This document shows, piece by piece, positions 10,727 to 24,297 of a stretch of DNA of 25,232 bases; position 1 is the first letter of the stretch; each line of letters starts with the position of its first letter. The translations under genes and the position numbers were made by a program. The DNA is taken from positions 1 to 25,232 of the IMG/VR virus record IMGVR_UViG_3300035209_000017. One strand, 5' to 3'. This DNA comes from a virus. Under the pieces are notes generated by a model. The model saw nothing but the letters and a program-made list of their open reading frames with translations. It did not search any database and was not told where the DNA came from.

Positions 10727-12088
10727 TTAAAGCCCTAGTGACGCATATTTGGCATATGCATAACCAGCAAGTGTCACATAACCAGCAGCAGTTGGGTGAA
10801 CACCATCAATTGTTTCATAACCAGTCCAAGTAGATGTATCTATCCAGATCAGTTTAGGGTTGGCTTTAGCATCCATTACGGATTTGAGTGTGGCGTTGGC
10901 CGCAATCGCGATATTATTTGTATTGGTGTCCGCAATCGGGAATATGCCTCGACATAGAACTTTCCCGTAGCCTTTAGCCAACAGTTTATCAATACATGCG
11001 CCGTAGTCGGCCTGTTCTGTAGAGTCAATACCGCTCTCTGCACTGTTACCGCCAAGTGAGAGAATAGCTACGTCATTTGGTCCTACTACACGCCCAGCCA
11101 AGCAACTGTCGATCATGGCTTTACCACCACCAACAGTTTGTCCGCTGATACCGTTTGTACTACCTACAAACCCAAGCTTGGCGGCTACGCTCATAAGCTC
11201 AGAGTCAACCGGTGTTGCACCCGGACCAGATCCGTATGTTACCGAATCACCGTATTGTTCTATGCGGCGACGGGTTCCGATATCTAGGAACGTTGAATCC
11301 CCTGCAACTGCGAATACACCACCGGAGTTGACACTGTTACCACTATCCCAGATGTTATAAGTTGAAGTTGACCCATCGCATGGGATAACTATCGCACGGC
11401 TTGGGTTATTTGATTCTTCCGCTATGCTGTAGAACGTAGGTGGTCCACCGTTCTGGCATACCCCAATTTTACGGGCACCGTTGAGGGTGACAACTAGTTT
11501 GGTGAACGCACCTTTAATTTTAACCGAACCAATGTTCGAACCATATGTCTGACCCGATGGAGCTTGCAACAGGGGAGTAAAGTTTGCAGTATTAGCAACC
11601 ATAGAACCACTGTACAATCCGGTAGCTGAATCCCCACCAACTTGAATCTTGTTGGTTAGAAGTAACAGTGATGGTGGAATCCCGGTTACCGATAATATAT
11701 TACCAGTCGCAGGTATATAAGCCGCATCACCCAAGCCGGGTGCAACACGAAATTCAACAAAGTGACCAGCTTGTGGAAGCCCGGTAAACAATGTGTGTAC
11801 CTGCCCTGTCCGTGCGGCACTACCGAACGCACCACCGTCAACAGCAACTTGCACGGCACCGTCATAGTCCCCGTAGTCACTGGTCATTGTAAGTTTGGCC
11901 TCAGTACCGTAAATCCACCCAGACCACAACGTAATTTCCGTGCGGCAATAAACCCGTGCGGCGTTCTGAATGGTGTCGATTGGTCCTGTAAATCCGCCTA
12001 ATATCTGTGTGGCAGTGTAGTTAACTGTCGTCGGGGTAGATGGCAGCGCCGGAACCATCATCAGTAATCTAGCTAGGCTACTACTCAT
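10727..12088 (-). CDS. SGNH/GDSL hydrolase, tail-fibre associated
   Basis: The C-terminal half (residues about 275-453) is an SGNH-fold hydrolase. Block I is QYGDSVTYG with nucleophile Ser282, block II holds a glycine near 316, block III is LGGN with Asn348, and block V is DGVH with Asp428 and His431. The full catalytic set is present, so an active esterase is likely. Phage proteins of this type often remove acetyl groups from capsule or O-antigen. The N-terminal 270 residues are beta-rich and probably attach to the fibre or bind sugar. The start overlaps the tail fibre stop (ATGA) and a terminator follows, so the two genes form a fibre-enzyme pair. The true substrate is unknown. It has no counterpart at this place in T4. 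Confidence 0.85.
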   Translation of the reverse strand: MSSSLARLLMMVPALPSTPTTVNYTATQILGGFTGPIDTIQNAARVYCRTEITLWSGWIYGTEAKLTMTSDYGDYDGAVQVAVDGGAFGSAARTGQVHTLFTGLPQAGHFVEFRVAPGLGDAAYIPATGNILSVTGIPPSLLLLTNKIQVGGDSATGLYSGSMVANTANFTPLLQAPSGQTYGSNIGSVKIKGAFTKLVVTLNGARKIGVCQNGGPPTFYSIAEESNNPSRAIVIPCDGSTSTYNIWDSGNSVNSGGVFAVAGDSTFLDIGTRRRIEQYGDSVTYGSGPGATPVDSELMSVAAKLGFVGSTNGISGQTVGGGKAMIDSCLAGRVVGPNDVAILSLGGNSAESGIDSTEQADYGACIDKLLAKGYGKVLCRGIFPIADTNTNNIAIAANATLKSVMDAKANPKLIWIDTSTWTGYETIDGVHPTAAGYVTLAGYAYAKYASLGL

Positions 12089-14061: not shown

Positions 14062-15069
14062 TTATGTGTAACTGGCAATTTTTTTCAAACCCGGTGAATA
14101 ATGATTTTGATACATTGTCATCACAGAATTTGATGCATTTTTAGGACGATTACCGGCCCGATTGAATGAAATATGAATCCACGGGGCATTTCCATGTTCC
14201 CAAAGCAATTGATCGTAGTTCAAATGGTCTTTACACCATTGTGCAATAGCGAACATTTGATCATACGACTTGCCGGGGAATTGAATATCCACAGCTTGAC
14301 CCTTCTCATGTTGCGATTTACCATTCTGCATTGTTCGGAATCCGCTATTGATACGGAAACTTCCGTGCGCAGCTCTGAATGGTTCGAGAATATTTTCAGC
14401 CAATGCTTTCAAGTTACATGCAATCTGAGCTTGTGACAGTCCATTTTGTGCTTTGATACTATGCGGAAACAATGCGTTAATACTTAAATGACGAAGTTTG
14501 AAGTTCGCACTTAACTGGAAATCGTAATCAATTGGTGATGTAATCATGCTGCAATCCGAAGCTGGGGGTGCTGGTGGTTCTGGCGGTTTTACATCATCAA
14601 CAATAGCAATCGGCACTTCTACCGGAATCGGGGTTGGTGGTGTAACTTGTGGCAGCGGCGGATATACCGGCGAGCCTGAATTTACTTCGAATTCATCATC
14701 GATACCCGAATGCCCTACGTTATCGATCAGGGGTTCGGCATTCTTGTATGAATTCTGGTTTGATGGCATTGTGACGCCAAACACTGTTACAAACGATTCG
14801 TTTGCATAAACCGTAGGTGAACCCACGTTGATAATAGAGCCAATATTGGTTTCATCAAATACCCGAGCCACTGGCTTCTGATTCACAAACACTGTAGGTG
14901 AACCTGTCGAAGTTTTATGGTTTGGGTTTGGCAATACCCACGAATCATCTACCCGGTGAACGGGCAATAGGTTGGCATTGACGGTTGGTGAACCGGTTAG
15001 AGCGACGGTAGGAATACCACCGTTCGGCCCCGGAACACATGTGTCGCCAATTCTGGCTATATTAGTCAT
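14062..15069 (-). CDS. PAAR spike tip fused to M15-type peptidase
   Basis: Residues 1-100 form a PAAR domain with three GSPTV repeats (near residues 26, 56 and 83). Such domains make the sharp tip on the spike (T4 gp5.4, 97 residues). A proline-rich linker follows at about 133-172. Residues about 180-335 are an M15-family zinc peptidase, the D-Ala-D-Ala or L-Ala-D-Glu cutting type. SGFRT is near 242, the zinc motif SxHxxGxAxD gives His254 and Asp261, WIHISF gives His299, and Glu291 is the likely catalytic acid. All key residues are present. The protein would cut peptidoglycan as the spike enters the cell. The start overlaps the upstream stop (TAATG). It lies two genes after the gp5 spike. Confidence 0.9.
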   Translation of the reverse strand: MTNIARIGDTCVPGPNGGIPTVALTGSPTVNANLLPVHRVDDSWVLPNPNHKTSTGSPTVFVNQKPVARVFDETNIGSIINVGSPTVYANESFVTVFGVTMPSNQNSYKNAEPLIDNVGHSGIDDEFEVNSGSPVYPPLPQVTPPTPIPVEVPIAIVDDVKPPEPPAPPASDCSMITSPIDYDFQLSANFKLRHLSINALFPHSIKAQNGLSQAQIACNLKALAENILEPFRAAHGSFRINSGFRTMQNGKSQHEKGQAVDIQFPGKSYDQMFAIAQWCKDHLNYDQLLWEHGNAPWIHISFNRAGNRPKNASNSVMTMYQNHYSPGLKKIASYT

Positions 15070-15670: not shown

Positions 15671-16942
15671 TTAGTTTAAATCGATCCGGGAACCGAGAAT
15701 CGCGGTTGGACCAGTTGCATCAATTGTTGCAGCTCCAGAAACACCGACACTGAATGTCGCACAGGCTAGGCCGTATGCAGACGAAACGTTGATGCCGTAG
15801 TTACCACCAACCATATCGGTTCTTTTACCACCGGTAATCATGGTTAGATCAGTTGCTACGGTTTGTGTCCAGTCACCCAAACATTGAACCGAATTCTTTG
15901 CACCGATTTGAAGCGAGTTGTTCGCACCAATCGATTCGGTTTTGTTTAGGGCAACAACTTCTGTTCGGTTAGAGCCGTCCCTTTGTGTTACGTTTCCTTG
16001 GCTGTTTGTAAACGATTCACCGAGAACATCGCGAGCATAGTTACCTTCAATCTTTTCAGACAGGTTACCCTTGATCAATCTGGTTACGTTTCCATTAACC
16101 TGTTCCTGCAAGTTTCCTTGAACCAGAAGCTTTGCATTACCAATAATAGTGATTTGCTGGTTTGCACCAACTAGAATCTTGCGATCACCCACGACAATAA
16201 CGGTTGAATCGCCGGTAACCTTCTGGGAAACAGATCCATCCGGTTGCCATTCTTCATAAGTGCCGGTAGTGCCGTGCAGCCAATGCATTCTTTCTGCACC
16301 GGGAGTATCATCATATTCTTCAACATGACCAGATTCGGTTTCTCGAACGTGGTTGTATGGGTACTTGGTGTTGTTCGCCGGGGCAGGTTCATCCCACTTC
16401 GGACCAAGGGTGTTTGCAGACCCCGGAACCCCTGTACCAGCCACGTTATCCACGGCGGTGGGGATACCCGTAATTCGGCCAGCGGTTTTTGATGCAAGCC
16501 CCGCGTGGGATCTGAATGCAGATCGTGCCAGACGGTTTAGATCAGGTTCGTTCAAATACTTTGGATACAATCCCTTTGGATCGTTAAACCCTTGGGTCTT
16601 GTCAGCAGATGCTACCGGGATTCCATCAATTGTCCCCAAGATATAAGGGAGCTGACACATATGGCCGTCCAGAAAGAACCCAAACACCATAGAACCCTCT
16701 ACAGGGCCGTTTGGCGATAGTCCTACACCACTAACAGAAGCCGACTGCACGCTGTTGATGGTTTGTGCCCATAACAGTTCGTCGGTCGGAATTCCTTTGA
16801 ATTGGTCTTTTACTTTGTCGGCGGTATGGCGTCCATATACACGAACCCGCAGACGACCGGCTTCCAGTGGGTCGTTTCTTCCTTCGACCACACCGAAAAA
16901 CCAATTTAGATCGAATTTTGTATTAGCCTTCAATTTTCTCAC
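15671..16942 (-). CDS. 5: Baseplate hub and tail spike gp5, lysozyme-less
   Basis: gp5 trimers form the cell-puncturing spike below the gp27 hub. Residues about 12-115 are the OB-fold (NWFFGVVEGRNDPLEAGRLR; GPVEGSMVFGFFLDG). Residues about 193-240 match the T4 start of the C-terminal part (YPYNHVRETESGHVEEYDDT). Residues about 245-423 are triple beta-helix repeats (VQGNLQEQVNGNVTRLIKGN pattern) ending in SRIDLN, like the T4 SRIDIG. The length is 423 against 575 in T4. The whole lysozyme domain is missing and only about 75 linker residues remain. The first possible start is GTG at 16942, overlapping gp27 by 20 bases. A TTG at 16933 fits the AAAGGTGAG ribosome-binding site better and may be the real start. 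Confidence 0.93.
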   Translation of the reverse strand: MRKLKANTKFDLNWFFGVVEGRNDPLEAGRLRVRVYGRHTADKVKDQFKGIPTDELLWAQTINSVQSASVSGVGLSPNGPVEGSMVFGFFLDGHMCQLPYILGTIDGIPVASADKTQGFNDPKGLYPKYLNEPDLNRLARSAFRSHAGLASKTAGRITGIPTAVDNVAGTGVPGSANTLGPKWDEPAPANNTKYPYNHVRETESGHVEEYDDTPGAERMHWLHGTTGTYEEWQPDGSVSQKVTGDSTVIVVGDRKILVGANQQITIIGNAKLLVQGNLQEQVNGNVTRLIKGNLSEKIEGNYARDVLGESFTNSQGNVTQRDGSNRTEVVALNKTESIGANNSLQIGAKNSVQCLGDWTQTVATDLTMITGGKRTDMVGGNYGINVSSAYGLACATFSVGVSGAATIDATGPTAILGSRIDLN

Positions 16943-20195: not shown

Positions 20196-20788
20196 TGGCA
20201 GAGACAAGAACACGGGTTCGTAAAGAACCGGACAGGGTAGCCCAGTTTAGAGCCTCATTGGCTGCAATGGATGCCCTACCTAACGCGAAGAAGAACAACA
20301 AAAGCATCAAATGGTTCAAGGACACTGTAGAAGGTATCCCGAAGTCCAAGATTGCCCCGAAACTGCAAGCGGGCAAGATGTACACCTATGTATATGATGC
20401 AAAGTACAAAAAGACACTCCCATATTGGGATCGATTCCCGCTTATCATCATGTTGGATGTAACCCCAACCCACCAATTGGGTTTGAACTTACACTACCTC
20501 CCACCGAAGGCCAGACAGGCTTTCATGGAGAAAATCCTAAAGATGTTAAGCCAAAAGAACCTTGGACCTAAAGCATATTTCAAAATCAACTGGGATGCGG
20601 TTAAACGTTATCCGGGTGCCGAGAAAATGATCAAGTGTTATATCCGTTCGCGGATCAAGGGTCATATGGTTGAAATCAATCCGATGTATTGGGCCAACGC
20701 AATTTATCTACCGACACAACAATTCTTGGACAAAGACGGCAAACGTTTCTCTGCACGAAAAGTTTGGGCGGATGGGAAGACACACTAA
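20195..20788 (+). CDS. Conserved T4-superfamily protein of unknown role
   Basis: I do not recognise a T4 numbered gene here. The protein has 197 residues. Residues about 62-112 hold the most family-like part: KMYTYVYDAKYKKTLPYWDRFPL, an aliphatic strand and GLNLHYLPPKARQAFMEKIL. I recall similar segments in proteins of marine T4-like and other large myophages, where they are usually annotated only as structural or hypothetical. The N-terminus is basic and the C-terminus is lysine- and arginine-rich, which would fit contact with DNA. It sits between head completion gp4 and tube initiator gp54, and overlaps both as TAATG. A role in head-tail finishing is possible but not shown. Confidence 0.65.
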   Translation: MAETRTRVRKEPDRVAQFRASLAAMDALPNAKKNNKSIKWFKDTVEGIPKSKIAPKLQAGKMYTYVYDAKYKKTLPYWDRFPLIIMLDVTPTHQLGLNLHYLPPKARQAFMEKILKMLSQKNLGPKAYFKINWDAVKRYPGAEKMIKCYIRSRIKGHMVEINPMYWANAIYLPTQQFLDKDGKRFSARKVWADGKTH

Positions 20789-21561
20789 TGGCAACAATCG
20801 ATATCGACAAATTCAGATCCGCAATTATGAAAGACGACCTTGGACGAGCAAACTTGTTCAAGGTCGAGTTTCCGCAAAAAATTGGTGTTGACATCAAAAA
20901 CAGTTTTGCGAATGGCGGTGGCAGTCTATTCAGATCCATCACCGATGTGGTGACCAAAGAAGTATTATCCCGAGCCGAACCAATCAGACACCTTACCGGT
21001 TTCTTTAGCCCTGAGATTATCAGGGCGGTTGGCCTTGGTGACATGCTTGATAAATACCTACAGTATCCATACGACCTTGGGATGTACGTCCGGGATGTCG
21101 CGATTCCGGGGCGAACACTCCAAACCGCTGATGTCAAATCGGACCAAGTTCCATTCAGCATGGTTAACGGCAGCGAATTTGATCTATTGTCCATGACCTT
21201 CCTTGTAACCCCGTCACAGAAAGAACGTCAGTTCTTTTTAGACTGGATGAACAAAGCTTGTAACATGGATCGACACAAATATGGATTCTACGATAGTTAT
21301 GTAGCAAACCAGATTGTTATCAAATTCTGCGACCGTCAAGGAAACATGGCGTCCATCACAGAAGTAGCGGAAGCATTTCCCGTTCATGTGTCGGATATGC
21401 AACTGTCGTATGACAGCAATAACCAACTTGCGACCTTCGACGTTCAATTCAAATTCAAGAAGTGTGTAACCAGAGCCGCGACTGATTCCGGTGATGGCAA
21501 CATCTTTACAGACGCTAAACATTGGTACGATTCCATCAAACGTATCACCAAGATCATTTAA
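20788..21561 (+). CDS. 54: Baseplate tail tube initiator gp54
   Basis: gp54 forms the ring on top of gp48 from which gp19 tube subunits polymerise. I start at 20788, where the ATG overlaps the previous stop (TAATG) and GGGAAG gives a ribosome-binding site; an upstream in-frame ATG lies inside the previous gene. The length is 257 residues (T4: 320). Residues about 90-160 (MYVRDVAIPGRTLQTADV, then EFDLLSMTFLVTPSQKERQFFLDWMN) show the tail-tube fold pattern. Residues about 215-240 (SDMQLSYDSNNQLATFDVQF) match the T4 gp54 ELSYDGDNQITTFDVTF segment. gp54 and gp19 are related, but the N-terminal extension and the hub location favour gp54. Confidence 0.82.
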   Translation: MATIDIDKFRSAIMKDDLGRANLFKVEFPQKIGVDIKNSFANGGGSLFRSITDVVTKEVLSRAEPIRHLTGFFSPEIIRAVGLGDMLDKYLQYPYDLGMYVRDVAIPGRTLQTADVKSDQVPFSMVNGSEFDLLSMTFLVTPSQKERQFFLDWMNKACNMDRHKYGFYDSYVANQIVIKFCDRQGNMASITEVAEAFPVHVSDMQLSYDSNNQLATFDVQFKFKKCVTRAATDSGDGNIFTDAKHWYDSIKRITKII

Positions 21562-21573
21562 GAGTATTTTATT

Positions 21574-22377
21574 ATGGGCAAGCTTGCCAGCTTAGCATTG
21601 GATTCACTTCCTACATTCAAATGTTTAGTTCCAAGCCTAGGGAAGACCGTCACCATGCGGTCTTTCGTAGTTAAAGAACAGAAACTATTGCTAATTGCAA
21701 AGCAATCCGAAAGTGACAAACTTGAGGGTGTTGTAAACGCGGTTAGCCAATTGATCCAAAACTGTGTGACCATCGGTGACATCAACGTCAGCGAACTTCC
21801 TAGTTTTGACATCGAATATATGTTTGTGCAGCTTTACATGCACTCTACCGGTGCATCACTAAACAAAACCTTCTATCTGTGCAAGAACCCTGTTCTAGAT
21901 GCAGAAGGCAAACCGACATTCAACGAAGCAAATGAAGAAATCACTTGCGATCAGGCGAATGGTGTAGTTGTTAACCTGAAAGAAGCCAAAGTTGCTACCA
22001 GCGAAATTCAAACCGGCATCATCGAGGTTAAATCCCAGACTATCGACCGACTGATTTTCAAGTATCCAAACTTTGAACAAATCACCCGTCACGATATCGC
22101 GATTGCAGATGAAGACGTTCAAACGACCTTGACCGTTTATGCTGAATGTATGACGTATGTTTACAAGGCCGATGATACTGTATTGAAGTTTGGCGAAGAC
22201 TATGAAACGGAAGACGCTGCCGAAATGCTTGAATTGCTTTCGAAGCCGATCTTTGATCAGGTTATGGGGTTCTTCATGAACATTCCAGCCATCACAGGTC
22301 ATTCCGACTTTACATGCCGTAAGTGTGGACACAACGCAAAAATCGAGTTGCGGGGTCTAAACGATTTTTTCTCGTAA
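21574..22377 (+). CDS. 26: Baseplate hub assembly protein gp26-like
   Basis: In T4, gp26 is needed to assemble the baseplate hub. This 267-residue protein resembles the gp26-type proteins of marine T4-like phages, with an opening beta strand, TVTMRSFVVKEQKLLLIAKQSES near residues 25-47, LPSFDIEYMFVQLYMHS near residue 73 and a final CxxC segment ending in RGLNDFF. T4 gp26 is shorter (208). The stop comes two codons after the heptamer T_TTT_TTC (22365-22371), and a -1 slip there continues into the gp51-like frame. The gene directly precedes the tape measure, exactly where frameshifted tail assembly chaperones sit in lambda- and P2-like phages. The start ATG has a weak AAGAG ribosome-binding site. 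Confidence 0.8.
   Translation: MGKLASLALDSLPTFKCLVPSLGKTVTMRSFVVKEQKLLLIAKQSESDKLEGVVNAVSQLIQNCVTIGDINVSELPSFDIEYMFVQLYMHSTGASLNKTFYLCKNPVLDAEGKPTFNEANEEITCDQANGVVVNLKEAKVATSEIQTGIIEVKSQTIDRLIFKYPNFEQITRHDIAIADEDVQTTLTVYAECMTYVYKADDTVLKFGEDYETEDAAEMLELLSKPIFDQVMGFFMNIPAITGHSDFTCRKCGHNAKIELRGLNDFFS
22365..22371 (+). promoter_or_regulatory. Probable -1 programmed frameshift site
   Basis: The heptamer T TTT TTC, in the zero frame of gp26, is a canonical X_XXY_YYZ slippery site. The zero-frame stop follows at 22375-22377. The -1 frame is open to 22562 and encodes the gp51-like segment. A small hairpin (22384-22399, six pairs with one bulged G and a 3-base loop) starts 12 bases later and could act as a weak stimulator. 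Confidence 0.7.
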
Positions 22378-22406
22378 CTCAGGCCGAAGACAGTCTTGGT
22401 AGTTAC

Positions 22407-22562
22407 ATGAAAACCAACTTTAGCCTGCAAAAATACCACAACTATTCTCTGACCGAACTAGAAGCAATGATGCCTTGGGAAAGAAAGATTCTAATTACCC
22501 AAGTTACAATGTGGCTGGAAGAAGAAAAGAGAAAACTGGAAAGAAAGAAACATGGCGGATAA
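22407..22562 (+). CDS. 51: gp51-like small hub assembly protein
   Basis: Read from its own ATG at 22407, this is a 51-residue helical protein (NFSLQKYHNYSLTELEAMMPWER, then a charged tail). The pattern resembles short proteins found after gp26 in other T4-like phages and usually called gp51 or baseplate hub assembly. T4 gp51 itself is far longer (249), so the symbol is tentative. The same frame is open upstream to 22323, inside gp26, so the segment is probably also made as a C-terminal extension of gp26 by -1 frameshifting (about 64 extra residues). The ribosome-binding site before the ATG is only GGTAG. The end overlaps the tape measure start by 11 bases. Confidence 0.65.
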   Translation: MKTNFSLQKYHNYSLTELEAMMPWERKILITQVTMWLEEEKRKLERKKHGG

Positions 22563-24297
22563 TACAGAAGACTTGACGAGGGCGCTAGAAGATATAGCGC
22601 GCTCGTTACAAGAAAATAAGTTATCACAGCGAACTTCCGAGAAAGCCGACAAGGCTATCTTGGAAGAATTGCGCAGAAAACGAAAGTTCGATCAAAGCGA
22701 TAGCCGCACTAAGCGAGTTGTGAAACGTACTGCATCTGGTGCGTGGGGTGGTGTAAAGGGTGCAGCCGGGGCAGTAGGTAAGGCAGCCGGGGGATTTGTT
22801 GGGAGAGAAATCGGCGGTATTCCTATTGCCGGGGCGATCTTTAGAATCCTTGGGAAGAAATTCGCTAACGCCAGTCTTGAACGGAAACAATATAAAAAGA
22901 CCTTGATTATTCGAAGAAAACTCGAACTCAAGGAAATGGCAAGGATGGAAAAGATCCGCGCCAAACTCGACGCACGACGCGACGATGCAGCAGCCAAGGC
23001 AGATGCTGCCCGTAAGCTCGAAGACGCCCAGAAGGACGCTGGGGACGCTCCAGAGAAGACCAAAGGCGGTAAGGGTGGGATGGCCGCAGCGGTTGAGAAA
23101 ATGGCAGATGCAGCAATGCACATGCAGGCAACCGTTATATCAATGACCCCGGCGATTCAGACTTTCCATGAGACTGTTGAAAAGATGTCGGAAGTTGTTG
23201 ATGCAATGCACGACAACAAGAACAACGATCCGGGGAAAGTTCGTGATGCACAACTACTTGAATATCTACATGGTATCGAATACCTAACCCAAGAGAGTGC
23301 AGCTATTGCAGAGAATGGGCAGGAAGTTCTTAAAACTATGGGTAAAGATATCGGAACTATCAAGTGGCATACTGCTAGACAGAATGGCACCGTAGGTAGA
23401 ATCGAGAAACTTATCAAAGATCGAGAAGACAATAGCATTGACGGCAAGACCCTCGAAACTATTAGCAAGGACGTTGGAACTATCAAGTGGCATACTGCTA
23501 GACAGAATGGCTCAGTTGGTAGAATGGAGAAACTGCTAGTTACCGCAGCCGCTGATCGGATTGCCGAACTGAAAAACCAAGATACCCAAATCAAGTTGCA
23601 GAAAAAGGCTTTGGGTGCTCAGGAAGAACAAACCGGTATTGCCGTACTTAACTTGGCAGCTAACGTTGCTGGGACTGCTATGAGTGCCATCGGAAGTGTT
23701 GGTAGTGCAATTGGCGGGGCTGTTGCTGGTGTAGGTGGTGCTGTTGCCGCGACCGCAGTTGGTGGTGCTGTAATTGCCGCGTTGCCAGAGATTCTTGCAG
23801 CCGGTGTAGTTGTTGCCGCAATTGGTGGATTAGCATACGCCGTATATAAGATGCTCCCGAATAGTTGGACCGGTGGTTCAACCGCCAATGGTGTTACTCC
23901 CGAGGATAACTTAAAACGTGCCAATGATCTTGCCACCGCAAATGGTAAATCTGGTAATGAAGAATATCAAACCCCAGAACAACAAGCATACGCAAAACAG
24001 AATGGACGTTATGCGGACAAGTCGATGTATATGTCATCGGACCCAGCTAAACCCGGCACATTCAAAGCCTCGGCTGAAATGTATCCGTGGGAGCATGATC
24101 GTTTGATGCAACAACAAGAACAGGATCATGGGATTGGAACTAACTCGGCGGCTGTTGAAGAAGCTAGGAAGAACAACGTTCAAGGTGCTGCGACACAAAC
24201 CAACGTCAACAATACCAACGTAAGTAACAGTACAACCAATGAAGCTGGCGGTGCATCACCCGTGTACAGCGGTACGATCCAACGAACCACTAATTGA
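22552..24297 (+). CDS. 29: Tape measure/baseplate hub gp29
   Basis: gp29 sets tail tube length and is part of the hub. The length, 581 residues, is close to T4 gp29 (590), so a tail of about T4 length is expected. Residues 1-50 are charged and helical. Residues 60-105 are Gly/Ala-rich and mildly hydrophobic. Residues 110-215 are strongly helical with high Lys, Glu and Ala. Residues 363-434 form a long Gly/Ala hydrophobic region with two likely membrane-active segments, as in many tape measures. Residues 265-287 and 306-328 are a near-exact internal repeat (GTIKWHTARQNG). The C-terminus is Asn/Gln-rich. It follows the frameshifted gp26/gp51 pair. Its start overlaps gp51 by 11 bases. Confidence 0.85.
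   Translation: MADNTEDLTRALEDIARSLQENKLSQRTSEKADKAILEELRRKRKFDQSDSRTKRVVKRTASGAWGGVKGAAGAVGKAAGGFVGREIGGIPIAGAIFRILGKKFANASLERKQYKKTLIIRRKLELKEMARMEKIRAKLDARRDDAAAKADAARKLEDAQKDAGDAPEKTKGGKGGMAAAVEKMADAAMHMQATVISMTPAIQTFHETVEKMSEVVDAMHDNKNNDPGKVRDAQLLEYLHGIEYLTQESAAIAENGQEVLKTMGKDIGTIKWHTARQNGTVGRIEKLIKDREDNSIDGKTLETISKDVGTIKWHTARQNGSVGRMEKLLVTAAADRIAELKNQDTQIKLQKKALGAQEEQTGIAVLNLAANVAGTAMSAIGSVGSAIGGAVAGVGGAVAATAVGGAVIAALPEILAAGVVVAAIGGLAYAVYKMLPNSWTGGSTANGVTPEDNLKRANDLATANGKSGNEEYQTPEQQAYAKQNGRYADKSMYMSSDPAKPGTFKASAEMYPWEHDRLMQQQEQDHGIGTNSAAVEEARKNNVQGAATQTNVNNTNVSNSTTNEAGGASPVYSGTIQRTTN
23353..23388 (+). repeat. Direct repeat copy 1 in gp29
   Basis: This 36-base stretch is identical to 23476-23511. 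It codes for the GTIKWHTARQNG segment. The copies start 123 bases apart, exactly 41 codons, so the repeat keeps frame. Confidence 0.95.
23476..23511 (+). repeat. Direct repeat copy 2 in gp29
   Basis: This is the second copy of the 36-base repeat at 23353-23388. Flanking protein sequence is also similar (KDIGTIK against KDVGTIK, VGRIEKL against VGRMEKL), which points to a 41-codon duplication that has since diverged outside the core. Confidence 0.95.

Follow-up and report, generated by a model that had tools for sequence, protein, structure and literature searches.

The window, that is, the whole stretch of 25,232 nucleotides analysed here, comes from an IMG/VR virus record of an uncultured phage whose relatives include the Pseudomonas phages Milchi and Astolliot, and it contains a gp26-like gene with a second open frame running past its stop codon. 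The question raised by this locus is whether the two frames are separate genes or a single gene from which some ribosomes obtain a longer protein by slipping back one base. We conclude, with a probability of roughly 0.93, that the locus encodes a tail assembly chaperone and uses a programmed -1 frameshift, in the lambda G/GT arrangement; the slippage itself, its efficiency, and the chaperone role are what we infer from the evidence presented below.

The gp26 Gene and the -1 Frame

By similarity to PF12322 T4_baseplate (E=4.3e-40, residues 14-266 of 267) and to phrog_150 baseplate hub (E=1.7e-40), the gene at 21574-22377 of the plus strand was assigned as gp26-like. Read from the sequence, it runs from an ATG at 21574 to a TAA at 22375-22377, and its zero-frame product of 267 aa would be the short form of the chaperone (TAC-N). 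The 3' end of the gene is AAC GAT TTT TTC TCG TAA, where the slippery heptamer T_TTT_TTC occupies positions 22365-22371 (plus strand) and the stop stands one codon past it. After a -1 slip the first codon would be CTC (22371-22373), the frame continuing as CTC GTA ACT CAG; its translation begins LVTQAEDSLGSYMKTNFSLQKYHNYSLTELEAMMPWERK and closes at a TAA at 22560-22562. This -1 segment (22371-22562, plus strand; 63 codons and the stop) would constitute the C-terminal extension of the long form (TAC-NC), with a predicted fusion length of 266+63 = 329 aa. An earlier sequence-only reading had proposed the heptamer near the end of gp26 and an open, helical -1 frame of about 64 residues; the heptamer was borne out in coordinates and frame, and the -1 frame proved to have 63 residues up to 22562, modelled as helical by AlphaFold2 (mean pLDDT 81).

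The heptamer TTTTTTC was observed 6 times in the window against 7.0 expected. The other five copies lie on the plus strand inside minus-strand genes, so that only the copy at 22365 is found within a gene in the sense direction. Since the 7-mer by itself is no more frequent in the window than expected, it is its conservation that carries the frameshift claim.

Directly upstream there is a tail-tube-like gene (20689-21561, plus strand; phrog_45 tail tube, E=5e-35), which is listed from a TTG and whose true start is probably later. Downstream, the ATG of the next ORF is located at 22552 and gives an 11-nt overlap with the -1 frame. This ORF (22552-24297, plus strand) encodes 581 aa, and in database profile searches it matched neither tape measure nor any other family; for this reason the label of probable tape measure protein rests on its position and size, which are like those of T4 gp29 (590 aa). 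As to the previous statement that the tape measure gene follows immediately, the next ORF in fact overlaps the -1 frame, and its identity as a tape measure lacks a database match. Within the same probable tape measure gene, at 23333-23534, there are two 79-nt copies, 86% identical and 123 nt apart, which might relate to tail length. On the minus strand of the window we also noted a PAAR motif fused to a peptidase M15 domain (14062-15069), adjoining the gp5-like spike gene at 15671-16942, and a GDSL-like lipase/acylhydrolase domain protein (10727-12088) located between the baseplate and the fibre genes.

Conservation of the Slip Site

Relatives were gathered from IMG/VR with peptide patterns that exclude the FF site, and named phages were added. 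The 3' end was complete in 242 loci, which were reduced to 156 non-redundant representatives at 80% protein identity. At the slip point, 153 of these 156 relatives (<80% identity) have TTTTTTN: TTTTTTC in 102, TTTTTTT in 48, and TTTTTTA or TTTTTTG in 3, the remaining 3 having AATTTTC, ACTTTTC, or GGTTTTC. The first codon of the FF or FL pair at this point was TTT in 153/153, whereas control FF pairs began with TTT in 57/142 (40%) elsewhere in gp26 and in 94/239 in the flanking ORFs. The codon that precedes the pair ends in T in 153/156, and the zero-frame stop is found 0 or 1 codon after the pair in 237 of the 242 loci. In all the untruncated representatives (153/153) the -1 frame stays open for at least 149 nt beyond that stop. 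The +1 frame reaches at most 82 nt among the relatives, and +1 frameshifting was rejected because of this early closure.

The heptamer and the -1 frame are kept in phages of Aeromonas, Vibrio, Pseudomonas, Rhizobium, Desulfovibrio, Delftia, and Stenotrophomonas as well as in cyanophages, and the heptamer was also present in the named phages phiN3, Bakedbeans, D482, and Astolliot, which were fetched later. The expectation that homologous genes would keep both the slippery heptamer and a homologous open -1 frame was therefore confirmed by this comparison.

A different slip region (A_ATT_TTC, G_ATT_TTC, G_GTT_TTC, or A_CTT_TTC) was observed in four Ackermannviridae loci (L054, L258, L259, and L060) and in Vibrio phage D503 (L056), all of them with an open and homologous -1 frame. 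Since re-pairing in the P site would be poor on these variants, a different mode of slippage may be used there. In Ag3 and P46FS4 a -1 frame stop lies immediately 5' of the variant slip region.

Coding and Start Codons of the -1 Segment

A profile search matched the -1 segment to phrog_634 (baseplate hub assembly catalyst, E=1.3e-19), and it can be aligned as protein from cyanophage-like through Pseudomonas-phage-like contigs. Its dN/dS was about 0.09 against the near relative L001 (dN 0.036, dS 0.39) and about 0.06 against L002, which indicates that purifying selection acts on it at the protein level. Synonymous change was lower in the -1 segment than in gp26 (dS 0.39-0.50 versus 1.4-1.75, against L001 and L002).

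The -1 segment could be a gene of its own, started independently (e.g., at the ATG of 22407) or reached by ribosomes that re-initiate past the gp26 stop, as it is annotated in databases for Milchi and P-SSM2; in some relatives an ATG of the -1 frame does stand 4-8 codons past the slip. Nevertheless, the positions of these starts are not conserved, and 8/153 representatives lack one altogether, even counting the 20 codons that follow the slip. In 140/153 no start codon is present at the slip or 5' of it, and in 26 representatives a stop codon of the -1 frame lies directly 5' of the heptamer. A nearby start with a Shine-Dalgarno (SD) energy of -5 or lower was found in the -1 frame of only 9/153, compared with 62% for the gp26 genes' own starts, and for the window ATG at 22407 this energy is only -2.8. 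Moreover, a downstream start leaves without explanation the conserved TTTTTTN and the residues that precede that start. The -1 segment has no credible independent start, and we consider two separate genes very unlikely.

Candidate Stimulators of the Proposed Frameshift

Programmed -1 frameshifting by the ribosome may be assisted in this family by elements on both sides of the heptamer. The candidate 5' stimulator is an SD-like GCGGGG (22350-22355, plus strand), 9 nt before the heptamer. Across the family, the region upstream of the slip pairs more strongly with the anti-SD than its synonymous recodings do (mean difference -1.28 kcal/mol, t=-8.5), and the control gave 0.02 (t=0.2); these t-values for the stimulators are optimistic, since the representatives share ancestry. 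Taken alone, the window is unremarkable in this respect (-5.7 versus -4.8 +/- 2.2 in synonymous recodings).

The candidate 3' stimulator is a stem-loop at 22380-22427 (plus strand), with arms at 22380-22389 and 22418-22427 and a spacer of 8 nt after the heptamer. Family-wide, the downstream region folds into a more stable structure than its synonymous recodings (mean z -1.54 versus -0.59 in the control region), and its folding also exceeded that of dinucleotide shuffles, while in the window alone the fold was no stronger than the synonymous expectation. No downstream stem common to the whole family was found, and the predicted structures vary by clade. Within the clade of the window itself (L001-L003, L222, L223, Milchi, and Astolliot) the stem is kept in 8 sequences with two compensated pairs (GC to AU and CG to UA); the covariation comes from 6 distinct sequences, and 23/500 shuffles scored as high. 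In the 18-61 pair, one arm changes from CAG to CAA and the other from CTG to TTG; since neither change alters the amino acid read in the -1 frame, selection on the protein does not explain this paired change.

These signals also bear on transcriptional slippage, in which the RNA polymerase would drop or add a U on the T run and produce some mRNAs with fused frames. The run does exist, and in some relatives it has 7 or 8 T. Against this, 102/156 representatives have exactly T6 and then C, short for polymerase slippage, for which a review (PMC5009743) names stretches of 9 A or T, and the SD-like and stem signals enriched at the locus act on ribosomes. Slippage by the polymerase is thus even less probable than two separate genes.

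Fold and Proposed Role of the Products

The AlphaFold2 model of gp26 had a mean pLDDT of 93.8. Among solved structures, the best match to residues 1-92 was the HK97 tail assembly chaperone 2OB9, with Z 7.6 over 86 residues, although this Z falls slightly short of 8 and the Foldseek E of 0.35 is weak. In the ranking for this N-terminal domain, 2OB9 was followed by 3FGX (7.4) and the third row dropped to 3.2. Searching solved structures by sequence, with either the gp26 profile or T4 gp51 as the query, gave no match. The window locus is likened to lambda gpG/gpGT and P2 E/E' by anatomy and fold and not by sequence similarity, and the slip sequence and the extension of lambda and P2 differ from those of the window. 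In these terms the analogy with lambda G/GT drawn from the sequence holds in its anatomy, and the fold search supports it.

According to the proposed mechanism, most ribosomes would read gp26 to its stop and yield the 267-aa short form. Some of them would slip back one base, with the two Phe tRNAs on T_TTT_TTC, and would yield the 329-aa long form with its helical C-terminal extension. The slip would probably be aided by the upstream SD-like element and the downstream stem-loop. In lambda, the short form coats the tape measure and the extension binds the tube protein, in a proportion of about 30:1 (PMC5009743). By analogy to gpG/gpGT, the tape measure protein of the window phage would be coated by many copies of the short form and a few of the long one, and the C-terminal extension would recruit the tail tube protein. 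A chaperone role is thus the one that we propose for the gp26 products of the window.

Relation to T4 gp26 and gp51

The same profile matched by the -1 segment, phrog_634, is matched by T4 gp51 (E=1.2e-23), and the PF12322 domain is present in both T4 gp26 (208 aa) and T4 gp51 (249 aa). T4 gp51 by itself is then a gp26-like domain plus, in frame, the extension that the -1 frame encodes in the window. The description of the segment as gp51-like was right in that it is homologous to T4 gp51, but only the C-terminal part of that protein is matched. Instead of the one gene with a slip site seen in the window, T4 has two divergent genes, 26 and 51, without frameshift, which judging from these matches encode the short and the long forms separately. 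The T4-type phages examined that have no slip site do not refute the frameshift, because their long form comes from gp51, in one continuous frame.

In the gp26 of T4, DK-13, Kpn6N, and Q7622 the FF codons are TTC TTT, and ZZ1, 44RR, and an RB49-like phage no longer have the FF pair. The proposal that the slip site constrains the DFF end is therefore sustained for the codons TTT TTY and not for the residues: since FF persists in T4-type gp26 without a slip site, the residues are partly constrained by the protein. A coincidence, with FF conserved for reasons of the protein and an untranslated -1 frame, could draw on this persistence and on a TTTTTTC that is not rare in the window, yet it is hardly credible, given that T4-type genes use TTC TTT while all 153 FF/FL pairs of the relatives put TTT first and that the -1 frame is conserved as protein across distant relatives.

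In the tree, which is unrooted and has long branches, all the frameshifted genes split from T4-type gp26 and gp51 at a branch with 100/99 support. The frameshift is kept in Aeh1, nt-1, and Ci1, although they are Straboviridae. In Enterobacter phage EC-F2 (L252:1201-2888), a long gp51-like and a short gp26-like gene stand in tandem, followed by gp25; the short form ends ALRGLEAFLKVVG, and the tandem order is unlike the divergent order of T4. In the record of Acinetobacter phage ZZ1 (L248:1201-1955) the gp51 frame is broken, with tblastn matching in two pieces and stops on translation, which may be a sequencing error or a real feature.

We lean slightly towards the view that the SD-like element, T_TTT_TTY, and the stem are an ancestral two-form device across the T4 superfamily. 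T4 genes 26 and 51 would then be its fossil, left by a single duplication through which gp51 came to carry the long form in frame and gp26 lost its slip site.

Comparison with Known Systems

Like the signal proposed for the window, that of E. coli dnaX has an upstream SD, a slippery heptamer, and a downstream stem-loop, and the spacing of its elements is similar. It differs in its heptamer, A_AAA_AAG, and in that the shift yields a shorter product.

In the sequence-only reading the frameshift was taken as a novelty in a T4-type setting, and this could not be maintained, because Vladimirov, Gautam, and Davidson (2022, Virology 566:9-15) are cited for the identification of the tail assembly chaperones of T4-like phages (PMC10885494, PMC12846349). 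As cited in the PRFect paper (PMC10885494), that work describes T4-like phages with one short and one fused long chaperone gene, and, as cited in the Adele paper (PMC12846349), poly-T slip signals in T4-like short-form genes. Insofar as these citations describe them, those chaperones share with the window the short and long forms, which are proposed for the window, and the poly-T slip signal, and the kind of system is therefore already known. The Vandenendeviridae and Andersonviridae (PMC12846349) also resemble the window in the -1 frame open beside the tape measure gene, a probable one in the window, and in the T-rich site that ends the short form, but their invariant sequence is GTTTTT and that of the window family is T_TTT_TTY. 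What is added here is a new locus, together with evidence on the SD and stem signals and on the relation between T4 gp26 and gp51.

Annotations routinely either miss the -1 segment or list it as a gene of its own, a "baseplate hub assembly catalyst". In hundreds of records of T4-like phages it ought to appear as one part of a frameshifted tail chaperone. T4 gp26 and gp51, hub proteins whose role has long been regarded as unclear, become readable as the short and long forms of such a chaperone, a proposal that can be tested.
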